DNA from: Phycisphaerae bacterium
Lineage (GTDB): Bacteria > Planctomycetota > Phycisphaerae > Sedimentisphaerales > SG8-4
DNA length: 22,609 bases
Direction of reading: 5' to 3'
NCBI GenBank assembly: GCA_030603035.1
Contig: JAUVYQ010000025.1
Coordinates: forward strand, 1-22,609
Below the pieces are notes generated by a model. The model ran no database searches and was not told the origin of the DNA. It worked only from the letters and a program-made list of their open reading frames with translations. Position 1 is the stretch's first letter; the number at the start of each line of letters is the position of its first letter. The position numbers and the translations under genes are program-made. This document shows, piece after piece, positions 324-22,276 of this stretch.

Positions 324-2960
324 CTACAACTGTAAGCCCTTTCCGTTGAGCAAGTCTTTCTGCTTGTTCTCCTTCTTGAAAACCGCTTCCCTCTGCTCTG
401 GTGTGAGCATGACTGGCGCCTCTACTTTCAGTAGCTCCCCACCATCAGCGGCAAACTCTCTGCAACGTCTCTCGTATTCCTTGACAAATGCTTTTCTCAC
501 AAGTTCGAAACTCAATGGCTCAGGCTGATGGTTTCTTTCATCGTCCATCAGGAACGGCTTGCCCGCATTTTCCGGCGCATAATCAGCTTTCTCGGTTCCC
601 CCCATATAACCGTATTCACTGCGGTAGCCGATAAGAATATCCTGAAAGGTATTCGAATGAATTGCCGGCTTCATGGTCCACTCCAACGACAAAGTTGTTG
701 CATCCGGACTGAAATAAAGCGCCCCGTTCCTTTTTCGAATATCACCCTTGTCTGTCTTGAAGCTCTTGAGGTCCACGAAGTACGGTATCCTGAAAACTAG
801 GTGTCTGGGCGGATGGTGAAAATCGGCCTTTATCTTGATCCTTGCTCCTTGTTCCGTAAATTCCAGACTGCTGGATACCTGCCCCATCTCTGTGGGCGCG
901 TTGCTGATTTCGACCTTTTCTCCAGCCCTGACCCATGCCGGGGAAAGCAATGAGAACAGGTAGAGATCCCGCTGGTCCTCATGAAGGCCGACTTCGCCGC
1001 CATACTCCACAAGCATCATGTTACGGATGAACAGGGCTGTCTTCGCGGCTGCCCAGGCATGCGGGGGCGGACAGCGGTAAAGGGTCCGGGTCCATGGCAC
1101 GACCAGGTTCTCAAAACCTTCATGGGTAGAACCGTTATGCAGCAAAACATGATACAGGTCCAGGAGGGCATGTTTCTGATCTCCAATCAACAGGTACTGA
1201 TTGGCCTGGTTTAATGTGACATACTGATGGATGTGCATGCCGTTGCGGTAAGTCATACATCCTTCACGGTACTTGCGCGTGCGAATCGTTTTCAGTGTCG
1301 CGGCTACTCGATCGTCCACGGGTTCCAGTACTTCACAGGGATAGACTAACAGATTGTTCTCCCAGTCCTGGCCAGAATATATGTTGGGTCCCTTACGTCC
1401 CTGGACCCTCCCCGCAGTCCATTCATACAAGCCCGGTCCGATGTAACCCTCTTTCCTGAATGTCCAGTCAATAGCTTTCAGTACAGCGGCTTTATAGCTT
1501 TCATGGGCCCGGTTCCAGGTTTTCACATCTTCCGTCTTACCTAACAGATCAGCCATACGAATGGAAGACCGCAAGGCTAACAGTCCAAATAGATTGTGAC
1601 ACGTGTGGTATCCGGTTATCATAGGCGCATCGTAAGGAATTGAAGGGCGAAGCAAACCCTTTGGGTCGGATTTATGATCATTAATGATGAACTGCACACC
1701 CTTGCGAATAGACGGATATACTTTTTCCGCGTAAGCTTTGTCCCGAGTCATTATGAAGTGGTGAGCGAGGCTGTACAGCGCCTGGCCATGCGAAGTTAAT
1801 ATCTCCTTGTTGCCGCGGCTGTGCACATCCATGAACATACCGCTTTCTATCTGCTTACCTATCAGCCAGTCAACGTTAGGCCGTACAAACTCATGAAGGC
1901 CCGCTGTGTCATAGGCCAAGCGCATGTCGATATAATCATTCAGGAAAAGCCTGTCATAAGGTAGCCCGCTCCCCTGACGCCTTGTCCTTTTATCAGTACG
2001 TGTCGCCAAGATCAGATGGACCAGGGCCGCACGGTACGAATTATTTACCCGCGGTTCAGGAATGGACAAGGACATTTCTCCTCCAAGCAGCTTCTTCCAG
2101 AAATCAATGGTGCGTTCACGGTATGCCCCGTACTCAGCGTCAAGCACATCTTTGCTATCCTCATACGGGCAACCAGGCATCTTGAATTCAGCCGCAAAGC
2201 TTTGCCCGGGCGCTAGTTCCTTTTCATAACAGACCATTCCGACTTCACTGCGACTGCTGACAAAACACTCTTCTGCCGTAAACGGCTTTTCGTAGGGGAC
2301 CTCTGGAACGGCAAACCGTCGAGCACCGGGCGAAAAGGTGAATAGCAGTCTGTCATTGGCAAGCAGGCTGTCGTCAGTCATGCAAAACATCGTATCTGTT
2401 GAAAAGCTGGCTCCTTCGCCCTTCCGGGCGTCTTCGCCCGAGCCGCGAAACGCCGCTGAAATTCTGCCTGTCGCACGTTTGCTGCCGCTGTTCTTCATCC
2501 GCAGTCGTACGAACTGGAGCGTGTTGCCTGCGCCGAGCTTTGGATGTTCAGCTGAGAATATCTCTATGTCGTAGGCAATATCGCCTTCGCGCCAGTCATA
2601 CACAACCACAGGAATCCATCCCTCAAGAAATGTCTTCTGCCGCGCCAGTAGCGGCTTGTCTTTCTCTCCATAAAAGAAGCATATCTCACCATGTCCAGCA
2701 CAAAATACAGATCCGTCAAATGTCACCTGTACCGGCTTAACAGCAAAAGGAACACCAATGACCGTGGTAGATTTAGTCAAATAACACCATTCTCGCGACG
2801 GATCATCGACCGGGACAAATCTCGCCTGTGCTTCCTTTTCTTCGGCAGATGCCGAAGTGTTGAGTAGTATTCCGATTATCATAAACAACTTAACCAAAAT
2901 GAAAGTCGTTAAAAGACCGAGTCCCGACAACCTGTTGTTTGGTTCTGCATGTTTGTTCAT
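324..2960 (-). CDS. Secreted glycosidase-like protein (six-hairpin type), family not identified
   Basis: The protein is 878 residues. The ATG at 2960 is chosen because AAGGAG lies ten bases upstream and the protein then begins with a signal peptide: a polar start, a hydrophobic stretch at about residues 12 to 34, and a likely cleavage after ASA near 39. The body has the helical repeats rich in W, H and Y that are typical of (alpha/alpha)6-barrel glycosidases, for example PPHAWAAAKTALFIRNMM near residue 634. A beta-rich C-terminal domain follows, with VEISNAPTEMG and LVFRIPYFVDL. It is therefore probably an exported carbohydrate-active enzyme. I cannot assign a GH family or name the catalytic acids. 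It lies on the same strand just downstream of topA, and the two were probably adjacent before the IS landed between them. The open frame continues upstream into the antisense strand of the IS, but that extension is not part of the gene. Confidence 0.72.
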   Translation of the reverse strand: MNKHAEPNNRLSGLGLLTTFILVKLFMIIGILLNTSASAEEKEAQARFVPVDDPSREWCYLTKSTTVIGVPFAVKPVQVTFDGSVFCAGHGEICFFYGEKDKPLLARQKTFLEGWIPVVVYDWREGDIAYDIEIFSAEHPKLGAGNTLQFVRLRMKNSGSKRATGRISAAFRGSGEDARKGEGASFSTDTMFCMTDDSLLANDRLLFTFSPGARRFAVPEVPYEKPFTAEECFVSSRSEVGMVCYEKELAPGQSFAAEFKMPGCPYEDSKDVLDAEYGAYRERTIDFWKKLLGGEMSLSIPEPRVNNSYRAALVHLILATRTDKRTRRQGSGLPYDRLFLNDYIDMRLAYDTAGLHEFVRPNVDWLIGKQIESGMFMDVHSRGNKEILTSHGQALYSLAHHFIMTRDKAYAEKVYPSIRKGVQFIINDHKSDPKGLLRPSIPYDAPMITGYHTCHNLFGLLALRSSIRMADLLGKTEDVKTWNRAHESYKAAVLKAIDWTFRKEGYIGPGLYEWTAGRVQGRKGPNIYSGQDWENNLLVYPCEVLEPVDDRVAATLKTIRTRKYREGCMTYRNGMHIHQYVTLNQANQYLLIGDQKHALLDLYHVLLHNGSTHEGFENLVVPWTRTLYRCPPPHAWAAAKTALFIRNMMLVEYGGEVGLHEDQRDLYLFSLLSPAWVRAGEKVEISNAPTEMGQVSSSLEFTEQGARIKIKADFHHPPRHLVFRIPYFVDLKSFKTDKGDIRKRNGALYFSPDATTLSLEWTMKPAIHSNTFQDILIGYRSEYGYMGGTEKADYAPENAGKPFLMDDERNHQPEPLSFELVRKAFVKEYERRCREFAADGGELLKVEAPVMLTPEQREAVFKKENKQKDLLNGKGLQL

Positions 2961-3052
2961 ATTTAGTTTTCTCCTTGTCGCATGTGTTTGTTTCTTTCCC
3001 CAGCAATTACCATGGTCACCCGAAGCGACCGAAAATAATTTACCGGCCGCCG

Positions 3053-3073
3053 TAAGCTCGACTTTTGCCATTT
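3053..3073 (+). repeat. Left terminal inverted repeat of the IS
   Basis: These 21 bases begin TAAGCTCGAC and end GCCATTT. They are an exact reverse complement of 4528..4548. The next base outwards does not match, which fixes the end of the repeat. Confidence 0.9.
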
Positions 3074-3173
3074 TTTTGGGTGTATGATGGATTGGAGAAA
3101 CACTGATGGAATAGATAGACTCCTGCCGATTCCTATTACTGTAAAAGGTAATATTGTCGGAAAGGAGTCCACT

Positions 3174-4520
3174 ATGCTTTCTATTCCATCGGCAGCACAG
3201 TCGCTTTTCATGAGTTTTTCTATAGCATTCACCCAGCCAACGTTCCAGCGAATTCTTCCATTGGCAATTGGAGGTGTTCTTACAATGGGACGCCGAACCG
3301 TCACTGGGATACTCTGGACGATGCGAGGACTGATCAAAGGGCATTCCAGCACCTACCACCGGGTTTTCTCTCGCGCCGTTTGGTCGCTGTGGCCTTTGGG
3401 CAAAGTTCTGGCGGGAACGATCCTGCGTCAGATCCCACCCGACGAACCGGTTCTGGTCCCTATGGACGACACCACCGCCCAGCATCGCGGTAAGTGTGTC
3501 TACGGCAAGGGCTGCCATCATGACGCGGTGCGTTCGGCCCATAAGCACGTGGTCTTTCGCTGGGGATACCGCTGGGTCGTACTGGCTATCTCCGTAAAGT
3601 TCCCTTTTACCTCGAAGCGTTGGGCTCTGCCGGTATTGGTGGCATTGTACCGTCCGGAGCAACTTAACCACGCCGAAAAACACCGGCATAAAACACCTCC
3701 TCATCTGGCCCGTCAATTGATGGCGGTGCTGATTCACTGGTTTCCTGAGCGAAAATTCGTGTTTTTGGGTGATGGGGGTTACGCCTCGCATGAGTTGGCG
3801 AACTTCTGTTATCGCCATCGACGTCATGCCACGCTGGTCAGCCGCTTTCATGGCGATGCCAATCTCTACGCTCCAGCGCCGAAACGAAAACCACGAATAG
3901 GTCGGCCACGAATCAAGGGACGTAAACTGCCAACGCCCCAAGAAGTGGTGGTACATCGTCAACTCACCGAAGCTACGGTCAGTTGGTATGGTGGCTCTGA
4001 CCGTCGTGTCCAACTTACCAGCGGTACCGGGCATTGGTATAAGTCCGGTGCGGGTTTGGTGCCGATTCGTTGGGTCTTCGTCCACGATATTCAAGGTACA
4101 CATCGGGACGAATACTTTTACACCACCGATACGAGCCTCAGTGGTGGGCAAATTGCCAGCTGGTTTACGTCCCGCTGGCCTATCGAAACCACATTTCAAG
4201 AGGTGCGTGCCCACCTGGGTTTTGAAACGCCGCGACAGTATGTCGCCAAGTCGGTATTGCGTACCGCCCCGTGTCTGCTGGGCTTGTTCAGCGTGGTCTG
4301 CCTGATTTTTGCTGAGCATACGCGGTGTCATCGTATCCGAGTACGACGGACAGAATGGTATGTCAAAGCCGAGCCTACCTTCTCTGATGCCATCGCAACC
4401 GTACGACGACTGTTTTGGCAAAAAACTATTTTTGAAAAGTCTTCGTATCATAAGGGTTTCAAAAAACTATCGCCCCAATTAAGGAACTTGCTGCTGGACT
4501 ACCTGAGTCAGGCAGCGTGA
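3174..4520 (+). CDS. IS4/IS701-like DDE transposase
   Basis: The protein is 448 residues and catalyses cut-and-paste movement of the surrounding IS. The ATG at 3174 is preferred over the in-frame ATG at 3084 because AAAGGAG lies six bases before it. The RNase-H-fold acidic triad is visible as the D pair in MDDTT (residues 98 and 99), D200 in LGDGGYAS, and E338 in SRWPIETTFQE. Spacing and wording (the DDT box, then the HWF...GDGGY box, then W-x-IETTFQE) match the IS4 superfamily, and within it the IS701/DDE_5 type seems closest. No internal stop is seen, so the enzyme looks functional. It is transcribed against topA and the glycosidase gene on either side. Confidence 0.9.
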   Translation: MLSIPSAAQSLFMSFSIAFTQPTFQRILPLAIGGVLTMGRRTVTGILWTMRGLIKGHSSTYHRVFSRAVWSLWPLGKVLAGTILRQIPPDEPVLVPMDDTTAQHRGKCVYGKGCHHDAVRSAHKHVVFRWGYRWVVLAISVKFPFTSKRWALPVLVALYRPEQLNHAEKHRHKTPPHLARQLMAVLIHWFPERKFVFLGDGGYASHELANFCYRHRRHATLVSRFHGDANLYAPAPKRKPRIGRPRIKGRKLPTPQEVVVHRQLTEATVSWYGGSDRRVQLTSGTGHWYKSGAGLVPIRWVFVHDIQGTHRDEYFYTTDTSLSGGQIASWFTSRWPIETTFQEVRAHLGFETPRQYVAKSVLRTAPCLLGLFSVVCLIFAEHTRCHRIRVRRTEWYVKAEPTFSDAIATVRRLFWQKTIFEKSSYHKGFKKLSPQLRNLLLDYLSQAA

Positions 4521-7191: not shown

Positions 7192-7815
7192 TTAAATATT
7201 TTTTAAGAGTTGAGCTAACAAGGGTTTCAATTTTCGGATTGCGTTGCCGCGGTGCGAGATTGCGTTTTTTTCCTCGATGGTCAATTGGGCTACGGTTTTG
7301 TTCAGGTGCGGGACAAAGAAAATCGGGTCGTAGCCGAAGCCGTTTTCTCCGATTTCTTTCTTGGTTATAAGACCTTCCAGCGTTCCCTGAGTTTCGATTA
7401 AGATTTCTTCGGGACTTGCGAGGCACAGAGAGCAGACAAATCTTGCTGTTCGTTTTTCAGTGGGTACGCCTTCTAAAAGTTTCAGGACCTTTGCGATGTT
7501 CTTATGGTCTATTAGCTTTCTATCCTCGCATATTTGGCCGCAGAATCTCGCCGATTCAATGCCGGGACCGCCCTCAAGGGCGTCGATTACCAGGCCTGAG
7601 TCATCGGCGATAGTCCACAGGTCGGTCGCCTTAGCGTAGCCGATTGCTTTTTTGGAGGCATTTTCGACAAAGGTGAGGCCGTCCTCCGGGATTTCAGCGA
7701 TATCACTGAAATCGGCAAGACTGACCCACTTAACGTCGGCTTCGAGCATAGCTGTCAATTCAGCGATTTTGCCGGGATTGGTAGTAGCAACGAGAATTTT
7801 TCTTGTTGTAGCCAT
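7192..7815 (-). CDS. rdgB: XTP/dITP pyrophosphatase (RdgB/HAM1 family)
   Basis: This 207-residue housecleaning enzyme hydrolyses ITP, dITP and XTP to the monophosphate and pyrophosphate, which keeps deaminated purines out of DNA and RNA. Family motifs are clear: TTNPGK at 11 to 16 (substrate phosphates), the acidic pair D71-D72 in ADDSGL (metal and catalysis), GFGYDPIF at 159 to 166, and SHRGNA at 187 to 192 (base recognition). Length matches the family. The ATG at 7815 gives the standard start, although no clear Shine-Dalgarno site precedes it. The gene follows the restriction gene by 12 bases if the displaced tail of that gene is counted, and by 115 bases if not. The 282 bases after it, before topA, hold no gene but do hold a possible promoter and a repeat. 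Confidence 0.95.
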   Translation of the reverse strand: MATTRKILVATTNPGKIAELTAMLEADVKWVSLADFSDIAEIPEDGLTFVENASKKAIGYAKATDLWTIADDSGLVIDALEGGPGIESARFCGQICEDRKLIDHKNIAKVLKLLEGVPTEKRTARFVCSLCLASPEEILIETQGTLEGLITKKEIGENGFGYDPIFFVPHLNKTVAQLTIEEKNAISHRGNAIRKLKPLLAQLLKNI

Positions 7816-7827
7816 GGTTAATAATCT

Positions 7828-7933
7828 TCAACTCTGCAATCTTTTAATTTCGTTTTGAATTTTTTCGATTATATCAGTGTTATATATTTTTTTCTTTTTG
7901 CCGGACTTGATGGAGTAAACGAAAAAAACTTTA
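7828..7933 (-). pseudogene. Displaced C-terminal tail of the MjaI-family restriction enzyme
   Basis: Skipping one base in the G run (7934..7938) lets translation continue for 34 more codons, KVFFVYSIKSGKKKK... and ...IIEKIQNEIKRLQS, to a stop at 7828. This tail ends in a beta-strand and a basic helix of the kind that closes PD-(D/E)XK restriction enzymes. It starts exactly where the upstream frame stops, so it is the natural end of that gene rather than an independent ORF. The ATG-initiated frame through it (from 8049) runs antiphase through conserved restriction-enzyme sequence and has no ribosome site. Confidence 0.72.
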
Positions 7934-8527
7934 CCCCCAAATTTCCTCGAATCTTTTATGATTGACTTCATGCATCTTATCCCACTTATATTGGTCCAAT
8001 GCCAAACCGGAAGATATAGGTTTAATTTGAAGCCCGATATATTTTTCACCTACCTTAATGTAAAAATCCACATTGTAAGTTCTGTCCCATTTATCTGGAG
8101 CAGGGTGAATTTTGACTCCTAAACGTGCCTCTAATTGCCCATATACTGTGTCGATTTCCGATCTGTAACCTTCGTACGTTCTGTTGAGAACAAGATTATA
8201 GGCATAATCGATACATTCCTGCTCCTCGATGGATTCCAATTCGTTTTGCACTACTTCAGAAAGTTTCACATAAAGCCTTCGTCCCAAATCTGTGACGTAT
8301 TCTCTTGTTATCTTAACGCCATTTCGTTTCTTTTGGGTAGCGTTGTCGAAGTAAAAAGTCTCCCACTGCTCAAACGATTTAGGCGAAGATTTTCTTATCA
8401 ATTCAGAAGTAGGACCTACACTGTGTGCCTTATTGAGTGCCCAGCGGTTCATAGCATAATTTAAGAGAGCTTCCCTTTTAAACTTAAGATTTCTACCTTC
8501 CCTGCCTATTATCCATTCTTTGGCCAT
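7931..8527 (-). CDS. MjaI-family type II restriction endonuclease, frameshifted near its 3' end
   Basis: This 198-residue product resembles the MjaI restriction family (RE_MjaI), whose type member cuts CTAG. A PD-(D/E)XK-like core is seen near the end: D154 in YNVDFYIKVG, then QIK at 167 to 169 in IGLQIKP. The N-terminal half is helical and basic. The gene stops early at TAA just after GGGGG (7934..7938). Removing one G restores a 232-residue protein ending in IKRLQS. It may be an inactivated toxin half, a phase-variable gene, a programmed +1 shift or a read error. The catalytic core precedes the shift. The start overlaps the methyltransferase stop by one base (TAATG), so translation is coupled. 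Like its partner, it is visibly richer in A and T than the arg genes beside it, which suggests acquisition. Specificity for CTAG is inferred, not seen. Confidence 0.8.
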   Translation of the reverse strand: MAKEWIIGREGRNLKFKREALLNYAMNRWALNKAHSVGPTSELIRKSSPKSFEQWETFYFDNATQKKRNGVKITREYVTDLGRRLYVKLSEVVQNELESIEEQECIDYAYNLVLNRTYEGYRSEIDTVYGQLEARLGVKIHPAPDKWDRTYNVDFYIKVGEKYIGLQIKPISSGLALDQYKWDKMHEVNHKRFEEIWG

Positions 8528-9813
8528 TAGTTTCTTTCCCCTGCTGTTAAAAACTTCTCCTTGAATTTATAATCAAATGAAGTATCAACATCGGCCAACC
8601 CATTTTTTATCAGATGAGCGTTAAGAAAGGTTTTATTCTGAAGGTACAAGTAGCAAAGCAAGTTGTTGTCCTGGTCGTATTTTACAGTGTCGAACTTCAT
8701 AAAAACTTTTTGTCCACGGGTTTTACCTCTGAGAAATTCAACGGCTTCATTACTCTTTCCAGGTTTTTCACGTACTCCGAGCAGTCTCACTTTCAGTCCA
8801 TCTCCGACAACCAATCGCTCCGGAGAAATTATGTCTTTTACAAGATAGTATTTCTCTCTCTTGGAATTTTGATTATTAATTTTCGACCCAAACTGTAACT
8901 TCCGGGGGTCAACTTTCTTGTCGAATTTGACAGGGTCTTTGAAAGTATAAGGTAATTGTTTGACTGCTTCTTTATAGTCCGTATCTGCTTTATTCTGTCT
9001 GATTATTTCAAAATCAGCCTCCTCAAAAATCATCCTTTGGCGTATCCCTAACTTCTCCTTTATCAGCGGCAGAAATTCAGGGTTTATCTCATATCCAATA
9101 GAGTTTCTCTTAAGTTTCTTGGCTGCCAAAGAAGTTGTGCCGCTACCGAGAAACGGGTCAAGAACTGTATCATTTACAAAACTGAACATTTTTATTAGCC
9201 GGTCCGGCACCTCTTCAGGAAACATCGCCAAATGCTTGTCTTGCTTTTCTCCCGGAATATTCCAATGGCCGGTAAAAAATTGGTTCCATTCTTCTATAGT
9301 CATTTTCGATTTTTCTTTAATTTCCCTGCTGACTTTTGGTGGAGTACCATGTTTTTTGAAAATCAGAATAAATTCATAATCAATTTTGAGAATCCCGCTT
9401 CTTGGAAAGGGGAACGAGCCCATTATTGTTGCTCCGCCGGTAGTATTACAGGTCGTAACTTTTTGCCAGATAATTGCTCCCATATAGTCAAAACCGACCG
9501 TTTCGCAGAACTTTATGATTTCAGTTCTTATAGGAATAACTTTGTATCTTCCGTAGTAAACAGAGCGAGCAAATTGGTCACCTATATTGACACACAAACG
9601 ACAGCCTTTATGTAAGACTCGGTGGCACTCGTTCCAGACCAGATTCAGATTGTTGATATAATCCTCGTAGCTGTCATCAAAACCTATTTGGCTCCCATTG
9701 CCATAATCTTTGAGTTGCCAGTATGGTGGAGACGTAATCACAAGATGGACAGACTCGTCCCCTACCTGCCTCATAAGTCTTGAATCACCAATAATTATTT
9801 TATGATGTGTCAT
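8527..9813 (-). CDS. Beta-class N4-cytosine DNA methyltransferase with C-terminal SNase-like domain
   Basis: This 428-residue protein methylates DNA using S-adenosylmethionine and should protect the site cut by the nuclease encoded directly after it. The catalytic motif TSPPYW (27 to 32) comes before the SAM-binding motif DPFLGSGTT (219 to 227), which is the order of beta-class enzymes. SPPYW favours N4-cytosine over N6-adenine as target. Residues about 322 to 425 look like a staphylococcal-nuclease OB fold: GDGLKVRLLGV, LLCYLYLQNKTFLNAHLI and KNGLADVD. Against S. aureus nuclease the arginine after KV is kept, but the positions of Glu43 and Arg87 fall on non-matching residues. The domain may therefore bind DNA rather than cut it. 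The gene begins two bases after the argF stop with no Shine-Dalgarno site of its own, so it probably depends on argF translation. AT-rich codon use sets it apart from argF. Confidence 0.88.
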   Translation of the reverse strand: MTHHKIIIGDSRLMRQVGDESVHLVITSPPYWQLKDYGNGSQIGFDDSYEDYINNLNLVWNECHRVLHKGCRLCVNIGDQFARSVYYGRYKVIPIRTEIIKFCETVGFDYMGAIIWQKVTTCNTTGGATIMGSFPFPRSGILKIDYEFILIFKKHGTPPKVSREIKEKSKMTIEEWNQFFTGHWNIPGEKQDKHLAMFPEEVPDRLIKMFSFVNDTVLDPFLGSGTTSLAAKKLKRNSIGYEINPEFLPLIKEKLGIRQRMIFEEADFEIIRQNKADTDYKEAVKQLPYTFKDPVKFDKKVDPRKLQFGSKINNQNSKREKYYLVKDIISPERLVVGDGLKVRLLGVREKPGKSNEAVEFLRGKTRGQKVFMKFDTVKYDQDNNLLCYLYLQNKTFLNAHLIKNGLADVDTSFDYKFKEKFLTAGERN

Positions 9814-9815
9814 TA

Positions 9816-10724
9816 TTAGCTCATTAGTTTTTTTAGCAAAGCCCGCTGGAAGTGGAGGCGGTTTTCGGCCTGGTCGAACATAATCGAATTAGGCGACTCA
9901 GCAACTTCATCGGTGATTTCAAAGCCGCGATAAGCCGGCAAACAGTGCATAATCTTGGCGCGAGGTGCGGATTTAAGCAATTCGGCGTTAACCTGAAAAC
10001 CTGCGAAGTCGGCGCAGCGTTTTTGCTTTTCCTCCTCCTGGCCCATACTGACCCAGGTGTCGGTATAAATGATGTCGGCGTCAACGACGGCCTGGGCGGG
10101 GTCGCTGGTTTGCCGGACGGTGTCGGCTGATATTTCGTTTGCCTTCTGGATTGATTCGGCGTCGAGCTCGTAACCGGCAGGCGAAGCAACAACCATTTTC
10201 ATACCCAGCTTTGCGCAGGCAAAGGCCAGCGAGCGAGCCACGTTATTGCCGTCGCCGATAAAAGCGATTTTCACACCTTCCAGCTCGCCGCAGTGCTCGC
10301 CAATGGTAAGGACGTCAGCCATTGCCTGGCAGGGATGCAGCCAGTCCGTCAGGGCGTTTATTACCGGCACCGTTGCGAAGGCGGCCAACTCGGTAACGGT
10401 GCTGTGCTCGAAGGTTCGTGCCATTATGCCGTCAACATATCGGCTCAGGACTCTTGCCATATCTTTGATTGGCTCGCGCTTGCCGATGCCGCCTATGTCT
10501 TCGGGCTTAACGTAAATTGCATTGCCGCCGAGGTCTGTCATAGCGACCTGGAAACTAATTCTGGTTCGCAGGCTCGGCTTCTCAAAAAGCATTGCCAGCG
10601 TCTTGCCGGGAAGGCATAAATCATTGCTGCCAACGCTGTATAAGCTCTTCAGCCGAGTGCTTATCCGAAGCAGCTCTTTTAGCAGCTCGGGCGGACAGTC
10701 ATTTATGGAAAGAAAATCTTTCAT
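9816..10724 (-). CDS. argF: Ornithine carbamoyltransferase
   Basis: This enzyme transfers carbamoyl from carbamoyl phosphate to ornithine and gives citrulline, in the arginine pathway. The 302 residues carry the carbamoyl-phosphate motif SLRTR (51 to 55, in the FEKPSLRTR box), HPCQ (130 to 133), the ornithine-side DTWVSMGQE (222 to 230) and HCLPAYRG (260 to 267). The DxxxSMG signature separates it from aspartate carbamoyltransferase. Succinyl- or acetylornithine variants cannot be fully excluded by eye. The start ATG overlaps the argD stop (ATGA), a typical coupled pair. The next gene downstream is the foreign-looking methyltransferase, two bases away, so the arg transcript probably also carries the restriction-modification genes. 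Confidence 0.95.
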   Translation of the reverse strand: MKDFLSINDCPPELLKELLRISTRLKSLYSVGSNDLCLPGKTLAMLFEKPSLRTRISFQVAMTDLGGNAIYVKPEDIGGIGKREPIKDMARVLSRYVDGIMARTFEHSTVTELAAFATVPVINALTDWLHPCQAMADVLTIGEHCGELEGVKIAFIGDGNNVARSLAFACAKLGMKMVVASPAGYELDAESIQKANEISADTVRQTSDPAQAVVDADIIYTDTWVSMGQEEEKQKRCADFAGFQVNAELLKSAPRAKIMHCLPAYRGFEITDEVAESPNSIMFDQAENRLHFQRALLKKLMS

Positions 10725-21451: not shown

Positions 21452-21466
21452 AAGGTGTTTTGTTTT

Positions 21467-22276
21467 ATGCATAAAGCGGGAAGGCAGGTGCGGTTTTCGA
21501 TTAACCCTTTTTTGCCGAAGGACAGTTTGGGCTTTAATTCGTTTGCATCCAGGCCGGCTGGTGAAGGGTTATCGATATTTTTCGAGTTATGTGTGGAGGT
21601 GGCTGGTGAGGTTGAGCCGGCTACGGGGTTTGTTGTTAACGTAATCGATATTGACAAGAACGTTCGCGAATATGTCGTGCCGATTTTTAGCGAGCGAATA
21701 AGGGAAGATTTTCGGCAGGGCAGACATATCGGTTTTTTGGAAATAGCCGAACTTTTAAGGTCGGCCTGGGGCCAATTAGCTGATAAGTTTGGGTCGGCGA
21801 GGTTGAGCAAATTGAGTTTGAAACTGAATCCTTTCAGGCGGGTAATGATTGATTCAAAGGATTTCGAGATGATTTACTTTAGCGAGAAATTCGAGTTTGC
21901 TGCGACGCATAAGCTCTGGAACGATGATTTTTCCGATGAGCGTAATTTTGAGATTTTCGGTAAATGCGCGAACCCCGCCGGTCACGGGCACAACTATGTT
22001 GTTGAGGTTACGGTAAAGAGGCCGGCAGGCGGGAATGGCTTTTGTATCGGCGATTTTGAAAGAGTAGTGGACGATGAGCTTATAAAAGTTGTTGACCATA
22101 AGAATTTGAATGCTGACGTTGCCGAGTTTCGCAAGACCAATCCGACCGTTGAAAATATTGCGGCTTTTGCGTGGGACAAGCTGGTGGGTAAATTCGGCGA
22201 AGTCCGGCAAAATGCCGGACTGCACTGCGTTACCGTGTGGGAAACCGATAAGACGTATTGCTCGTATTACGGATAG
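21467..22276 (+). CDS. Tandem 6-pyruvoyl-tetrahydropterin synthase/QueD-like protein
   Basis: The product of the folE reaction, dihydroneopterin triphosphate, is the substrate of this family. It is 269 residues, twice the usual length. The C-terminal half (about 135 to 269) is a full PTPS domain: H148 in FAATHKL, C167 and H173/H175 in GKCANPAGHGHNY, DHKNLN (210 to 215), PTVENIA (227 to 232) and WETD with E259. Cysteine to HGH spacing is five, as in animal PTPS, not three as in E. coli QueD. The N-terminal half (about 8 to 125) keeps the outline (FFELCVEVAGEVEPATGFVVNVIDID, then a helix pair) but has no HGH zinc site, so it is probably structural. ATG 21467 has AAAGGTG nine bases upstream and replaces a GTG four codons earlier. 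Product, 6-pyruvoyl- or 6-carboxy-tetrahydropterin, is open. Confidence 0.88.
   Translation: MHKAGRQVRFSINPFLPKDSLGFNSFASRPAGEGLSIFFELCVEVAGEVEPATGFVVNVIDIDKNVREYVVPIFSERIREDFRQGRHIGFLEIAELLRSAWGQLADKFGSARLSKLSLKLNPFRRVMIDSKDFEMIYFSEKFEFAATHKLWNDDFSDERNFEIFGKCANPAGHGHNYVVEVTVKRPAGGNGFCIGDFERVVDDELIKVVDHKNLNADVAEFRKTNPTVENIAAFAWDKLVGKFGEVRQNAGLHCVTVWETDKTYCSYYG

Follow-up and report, generated by a model that had tools for sequence, protein, structure and literature searches.

A restriction-modification locus in which the restriction gene has run out of frame beside a whole methyltransferase gene was found in 22,609 nucleotides of a Phycisphaerae bacterium (contig JAUVYQ010000025.1 of assembly GCA_030603035.1), a stretch called the window in what follows. 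The restriction gene, R, belongs to the RE_MjaI family; its frame, the place and size of its difference from an intact relative, the intact frame of the adjoining DNA methyltransferase gene, M, and the state of the locus in related genomes can all be read directly from the DNA. We put at roughly 0.72 the probability that R was recently broken by a two-base deletion, with M left intact, as the opening step on the way to a solitary methyltransferase. The passage from a restriction-modification pair to a lone methyltransferase is hard to watch; a set of related genomes in which the partner of one retained M is variously intact, newly broken, missing or replaced would make the change testable step by step.

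The restriction and methyltransferase genes

R matches PF09568 with 130.4 bits against a cut-off of 22.7, over positions 2-151 of the 164 in the profile (Pfam scan), which bears out the initial annotation, where R was taken from the letters alone for an MjaI-like restriction enzyme shifted out of frame; the frame of 198 residues closed by TAA directly after GGGGG was likewise read correctly there. M is intact: its 428 residues match the PADLOC model MTase_II PDLC03259 over almost their whole length (residues 1-422, profile positions 1-420 of 423), and it adjoins R as a type II restriction-modification pair requires, the two genes overlapping by the one base that the stop of M shares with the start of R. 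Residues 355-414 of M match a staphylococcal-nuclease-like domain (PF00565, E 9e-7, Pfam) whose catalysis is only putative. In its sequence family, its catalytic-looking residues and its overlap with an upstream MTase_II-type methyltransferase the window resembles other RE_MjaI systems; it departs from them in that R leaves its frame at residue 196, so that the last 34-35 residues are lost. The complete in-frame C-terminal strand and helix of RE_MjaI are thus missing, the protein ending at residue 198 instead of about 233, and R of the window is a broken member of the family, not a working one.

Position and size of the frameshift

Homologues of R total 3321, and the best 120 of these were listed and inspected: 118 are 227-242 residues long, one has 266 and one, P0040, has 195. 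Apart from P0040 they run through the tail, so that a natural end at residue 198, which the initial annotation had named as a refutation, does not apply. P0040 lies on an 809-base contig and ends within a few residues of the stop in the window, either by a contig-end cut or by a second truncation. In the closest homologues, which are 233 residues long, the joint reads E-E-K-F-G-G-K-V or nearly so; R of the window has E-E-I-W-G-stop there. Skipping one base does join the frame to its 34-codon tail, as had been proposed for the removal of one G, and gives 232 residues; the claim that nothing is lost in doing so fails, as the product is one residue short of its homologues and reads E-E-I-W-G-K-V across the joint.

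The nearest relative with available DNA is the isolate UBA9295 (Phycisphaerales; locus L001), whose R is 90.9% identical over residues 1-198. Its intact gene contains the same GGGGG. Just 5′ of this run the window has two bases fewer, a gap with four placements of equal score. An extra G in the homopolymer was considered as the fault and rejected: since a relative whose R is intact has GGGGG too and the difference in length is found upstream of the run, the fault is a two-base shortfall and not a fifth G, contrary to what was first supposed.

The same comparison bears on two ways in which R could still be expressed at full length. In the first, a phase-variable switch, a short run would change its length and toggle R; the fault does sit in a short purine-rich stretch adjoining the G run, and phase-variable restriction-modification genes are on record. 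However, the fault lies outside the G run, the A run at the fault is only three long, and the G counts among relatives, a comparison suggested at the outset, reveal no conserved tract: among 65 distinct homologous motif sequences, 37 have a longest G run of two, 15 of three, 12 of five and one of six. A switch at this site is therefore very improbable. The second is a programmed +1 ribosomal shift at GGG-TAA that would yield full-length R, for which it may be said that the stop follows a Gly codon where a shift is conceivable, and that the sequence of the tail is well kept. Relatives, however, encode R in a single frame, which means that there is no conserved recoding signal, and the +1 product would read I-W-G where close homologues have K-F-G-G; we regard this idea, also raised in the initial annotation, as barely credible.

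State of the truncated protein

The 34 residues of the out-of-frame tail are identical to those of the two best homologues, P0004 and P0005, at 27 and 30 positions, respectively. Two strands (residues 200-208 and 211-214) and a helix (218-231) are predicted to lie in this tail, and what R has lost includes a predicted core strand as well as invariant residues. D154, Q167 and K169 are invariant in all 58 rows of an alignment (A2) that includes the window, and may well be catalytic; that D154 and Q167-I-K169 precede the shift, as had been stated, agrees with the read-through translation. No solved structure was found for the family of R by sequence at E values up to 1, and a Foldseek search with the model of R returned nothing at 0.001 or better, its weaker matches speaking only for a nuclease-like core.

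It could be argued that the 198-residue protein still functions, for example in nicking or binding, as the catalytic-looking D154 and Q167/K169 stand before the stop. Against this, a predicted core strand and invariant residues are gone, and apart from P0040 none of the best 120 homologues is so short; retained function is highly improbable. With a predicted core strand and the last helix of a putative PD-(D/E)xK-like fold lost, the 198-residue protein is most likely dead, that is, unfolded or inactive.

Lesion or read error

A sequencing or assembly error would mean that R is intact in the organism and that two bases were dropped from the consensus. Such an error is unlikely, though well short of negligible, and indirect signs favour a real, recent mutation in R. 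The close identity of the tail to its two best homologues is what an error would predict. Conversely, 13 conserved genes in the window, one of them M, align with their profiles over almost the whole length (genes with a good profile only), private substitutions cluster behind the shift, and the gene hit is one that does break within its family, unlike its partner M.

Private substitutions of R in the window relative to 11 close relatives occupy four of 34 tail positions and two of 193 body positions (Fisher 0.005; alignment A2 without P0010 and P0015, joint residues 194-198 left out). Compared with L001, nonsynonymous sites have changed at an uncorrected proportion of 0.138 in the tail as against 0.040 in the body, synonymous sites at 0.57 as against 0.51. 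As to the family, R is intact in 46 of 57 genome loci, stopped in three, frameshifted in three, partial in three and cut by a contig edge in two; at the same loci M is intact in 48 and edge-cut in four, with five uncounted (not found, on the other strand, or below 35% identity). With partial and edge copies left out, R is broken in six of 52 copies and M in none of 48 (Fisher 0.027), and the codon-weighted probability that all six breaks fall in R is 0.0026. Because M is longer than R and yet unbroken, random error alone is a poor fit; the 57 loci were picked by R patterns, so that genomes without R are missing from the set.

Several observations weigh against a real lesion. An error in assembly or base calling would likewise show as a loss of two bases, and the loss is seen in one assembly. 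All four private residues of the tail occur in other homologues, and the tail is short and not visibly degraded. One of the 11 intact controls (P0014) has a similar skew of substitutions (0.009), which the other ten lack. Finally, P0040 ends near the site of the stop as well.

Among MjaI-type genes elsewhere, a single in-frame stop was seen in L015, L019, L051, L066 and L124 and a frameshift in L046, L047 and L053. Stop flags in L126/L078 and L074 were dismissed: that of L126/L078 comes before R begins, and R as aligned in L074 is stop-free.

A possible course of events

If the two-base deletion near the 3′ end of R is real, the living organism would carry a gene whose frame is shifted and whose protein stops at residue 198; lacking the last core strand and helix of a putative PD-(D/E)xK-like nuclease fold, this protein would most likely give no restriction. 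M, which is probably active as judged from its sequence, would keep methylating its sites, and the host would lose restriction and retain modification. Loss of R before M is the safe order in the decay of a restriction-modification system, because the chromosome would lie open to R if M went first. By analogy to the relatives described below, later steps might be a loss of both R and the nuclease-like end of M, or the entry of a new nuclease into the slot.

The locus in relatives

A survey of 89 genomes of the family to which the genome of L001 belongs gave 33 copies of M in 32 genomes, matching M of the window at 62-89%. An open MjaI-type gene stands beside 22 of these; the aligned part is stop-free in all 22, although some are only 20-55% identical to the close type, and of the three most diverged the one that was scanned is RE_MjaI (E 6e-62). 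One copy (L124) has an MjaI-type gene with an in-frame stop, three (L131, L132, L134) have another predicted nuclease in its slot, and one (L129) is cut off. In the remaining six (L128, L133, L135, L136, L137, L138) no MjaI-type gene was found beside M by tblastn at 0.001 in the fetched stretches. Within these stretches argF upstream and/or rdgB downstream accompanies 23 of the 33 copies: argF is beside M in 14 and rdgB downstream in 20, with both in 11 and neither in 10. Eight of the nine copies that lack an MjaI-type gene have argF and/or rdgB; L128, a second M copy in one genome, has neither.

The nuclease-like C-terminal domain of M appears to go together with R. Copies beside an MjaI-type gene have it; in the nine that lack such a gene it is absent or truncated, and their M frame measures 317-380 residues as opposed to 415-432 with R; the loss was judged by frame length and alignment, and in L133, the one of the nine scanned with Pfam, the domain is absent. 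The M frame of L133 (3879-5153) ends in a stretch resembling the last ~20 residues of R, with a mean score above all 2000 shuffles, and is likely the scar of a deletion that joined M to the tail of R.

It is conceivable, though we hold the odds to be somewhat against it, that in this planctomycete family M beside argF and/or rdgB is a resident chromosomal gene kept for itself, whose R partner is shed over and over. The proposed routes would be a frameshift (window), a stop codon (L124), an apparent deletion fusion (L133), traceless loss (L135, L136, L137, L138) and exchange (L131, L132, L134). If so, no stage captured here would be earlier than that of the window, in which the C-terminal domain of M is still there. 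From the first 318 residues of M a maximum-likelihood tree with 44 rows was built. It holds the window, 12 others and 31 of the 33 copies from the family, without L129 and L130, which are cut by contig ends, and without L033, which has a long branch. The state of the MjaI-type gene changes at least eight times on it, and also eight times when the window and L124 are scored as lost. M of the window groups with that of L131 (support 97/87), and 20 of 41 inner branches are well supported; as this is a tree of M and not of species, exchange at the locus could mimic repeated loss.

In an even sample of 397 genomes of the class, 25 match R, none closer than G001. In viral contigs no stretch fits the P0001 patterns for R, whose reach covers close relatives only.

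The replacement gene

In L134 (3976-5067), and in the same slot of L131 and L132, a protein of ~363 residues replaces the MjaI-type enzyme beside a shortened M. The L134 protein has no Pfam or PADLOC match; it has 118 homologues, none with a precomputed Pfam domain and one named PDDEXK family nuclease, and one distant homologue touches the NucS model below cut-off. With the model of a homologue, P0126 (79% identical; pLDDT 92.4), matches were obtained to VcaM4I at E 4e-5, to EndoMS and a Pyrococcus repair endonuclease at E 5e-4 to 6e-4, and weaker ones to YTH domains at E 5e-3. From these model matches the replacement protein is read as a predicted modified-base reader joined to a NucS-like nuclease, its parts being presumably of EVE/YTH and NucS identity. 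Three of the 397 genomes of the class sample match it, two of them weakly; in viral contigs two stretches fit a pattern for the replacement nuclease and none was confirmed.

Relation to known systems

The kind of event is already known, and the window is one more example of it. Solitary methyltransferases beside degraded restriction genes have been described (Seshasayee et al., via PMC6471742), and the discussion of PMC6471742 calls the transition to a lone methyltransferase infrequent. As far as these cases are described there, the window is like them in its intact M with a broken R adjoining; it differs in that, across one bacterial family, the same M, mostly beside argF and/or rdgB, has a partner that is intact in some relatives and stopped, missing or replaced in others. 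This repeated series around one M is the part worth following, and no claim is made that it is unpublished. According to the account in PMC5867850, HVO_0794 of Haloferax volcanii is a CTAG solitary methyltransferase and a homologue of M.MjaI, and resembles M of the window as a methyltransferase, in the window a putative one, of MjaI-system kinship without a restriction partner; unlike HVO_0794, the locus of the window is bacterial and stands beside argF and rdgB.

CTAG occurs twice in the window where 21.1 are expected (ratio 0.09). Its avoidance was rejected as a sign of R activity, as the ratio is low with and without R: 0.23 for 13 relatives' loci that have R, 0.19 for six that lack it and 0.26 for three carrying the replacement gene.

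As a separate observation, GATC is strongly under-represented in the window (positions 1-22609; 17 seen, 81.3 expected), and its ratio in the loci of relatives runs from 0.0 (L010) to about 1, a spread that hints at other DNA-cutting systems coming and going.

Other features of the window

The features of the locus are collected in Table 1; upstream of the M-R pair argD lies as well as argF, and downstream topA as well as rdgB.

Table 1. Features at the M-R locus of the window.
Feature	Position	Strand	Extent	Remarks
R, RE_MjaI-family restriction enzyme gene, cut short	7931..8527	-	198 aa, stop TAA	PF09568, E 7.3e-38; PADLOC REase_II, E 1.4e-25
Out-of-frame 3′ tail of R	7828..7933	-	34 codons and stop (7828-7830)	
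Site of the fault in R	about 7942..7947	-		Immediately 5′ of the G run; two bases fewer here than in L001, whose R is intact
Run of five G in R	7934..7938	-		CCCCC on the plus strand; ordinary Gly-Gly codons in L001
M, DNA methyltransferase	8527..9813	-	428 aa	N6_N4_Mtase and C-terminal staphylococcal-nuclease-like domain
argF	9816..10724	-		Upstream neighbour of M; Pfam/NCBIfam profile match
rdgB (XTP/dITP diphosphatase)	7192..7815	-		Downstream neighbour of R; Pfam/NCBIfam profile match

A frame of 73 residues with a GTG start (7828-8049) was considered as a separate gene and rejected; neither Pfam nor NCBIfam gives a match for it, and the tail of R makes up its last 34 residues. The frame of 1375 residues at 324-4451 has only faint, sub-cut-off glycosidase-like matches (DUF608, E 0.0012; oligosac_amyl, E 8e-8). 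Directly after folE lies a frame of 273 residues (21455-22276), the first 140 of which have no match above any Pfam cut-off; its PTPS domain is confined to residues 143-272.
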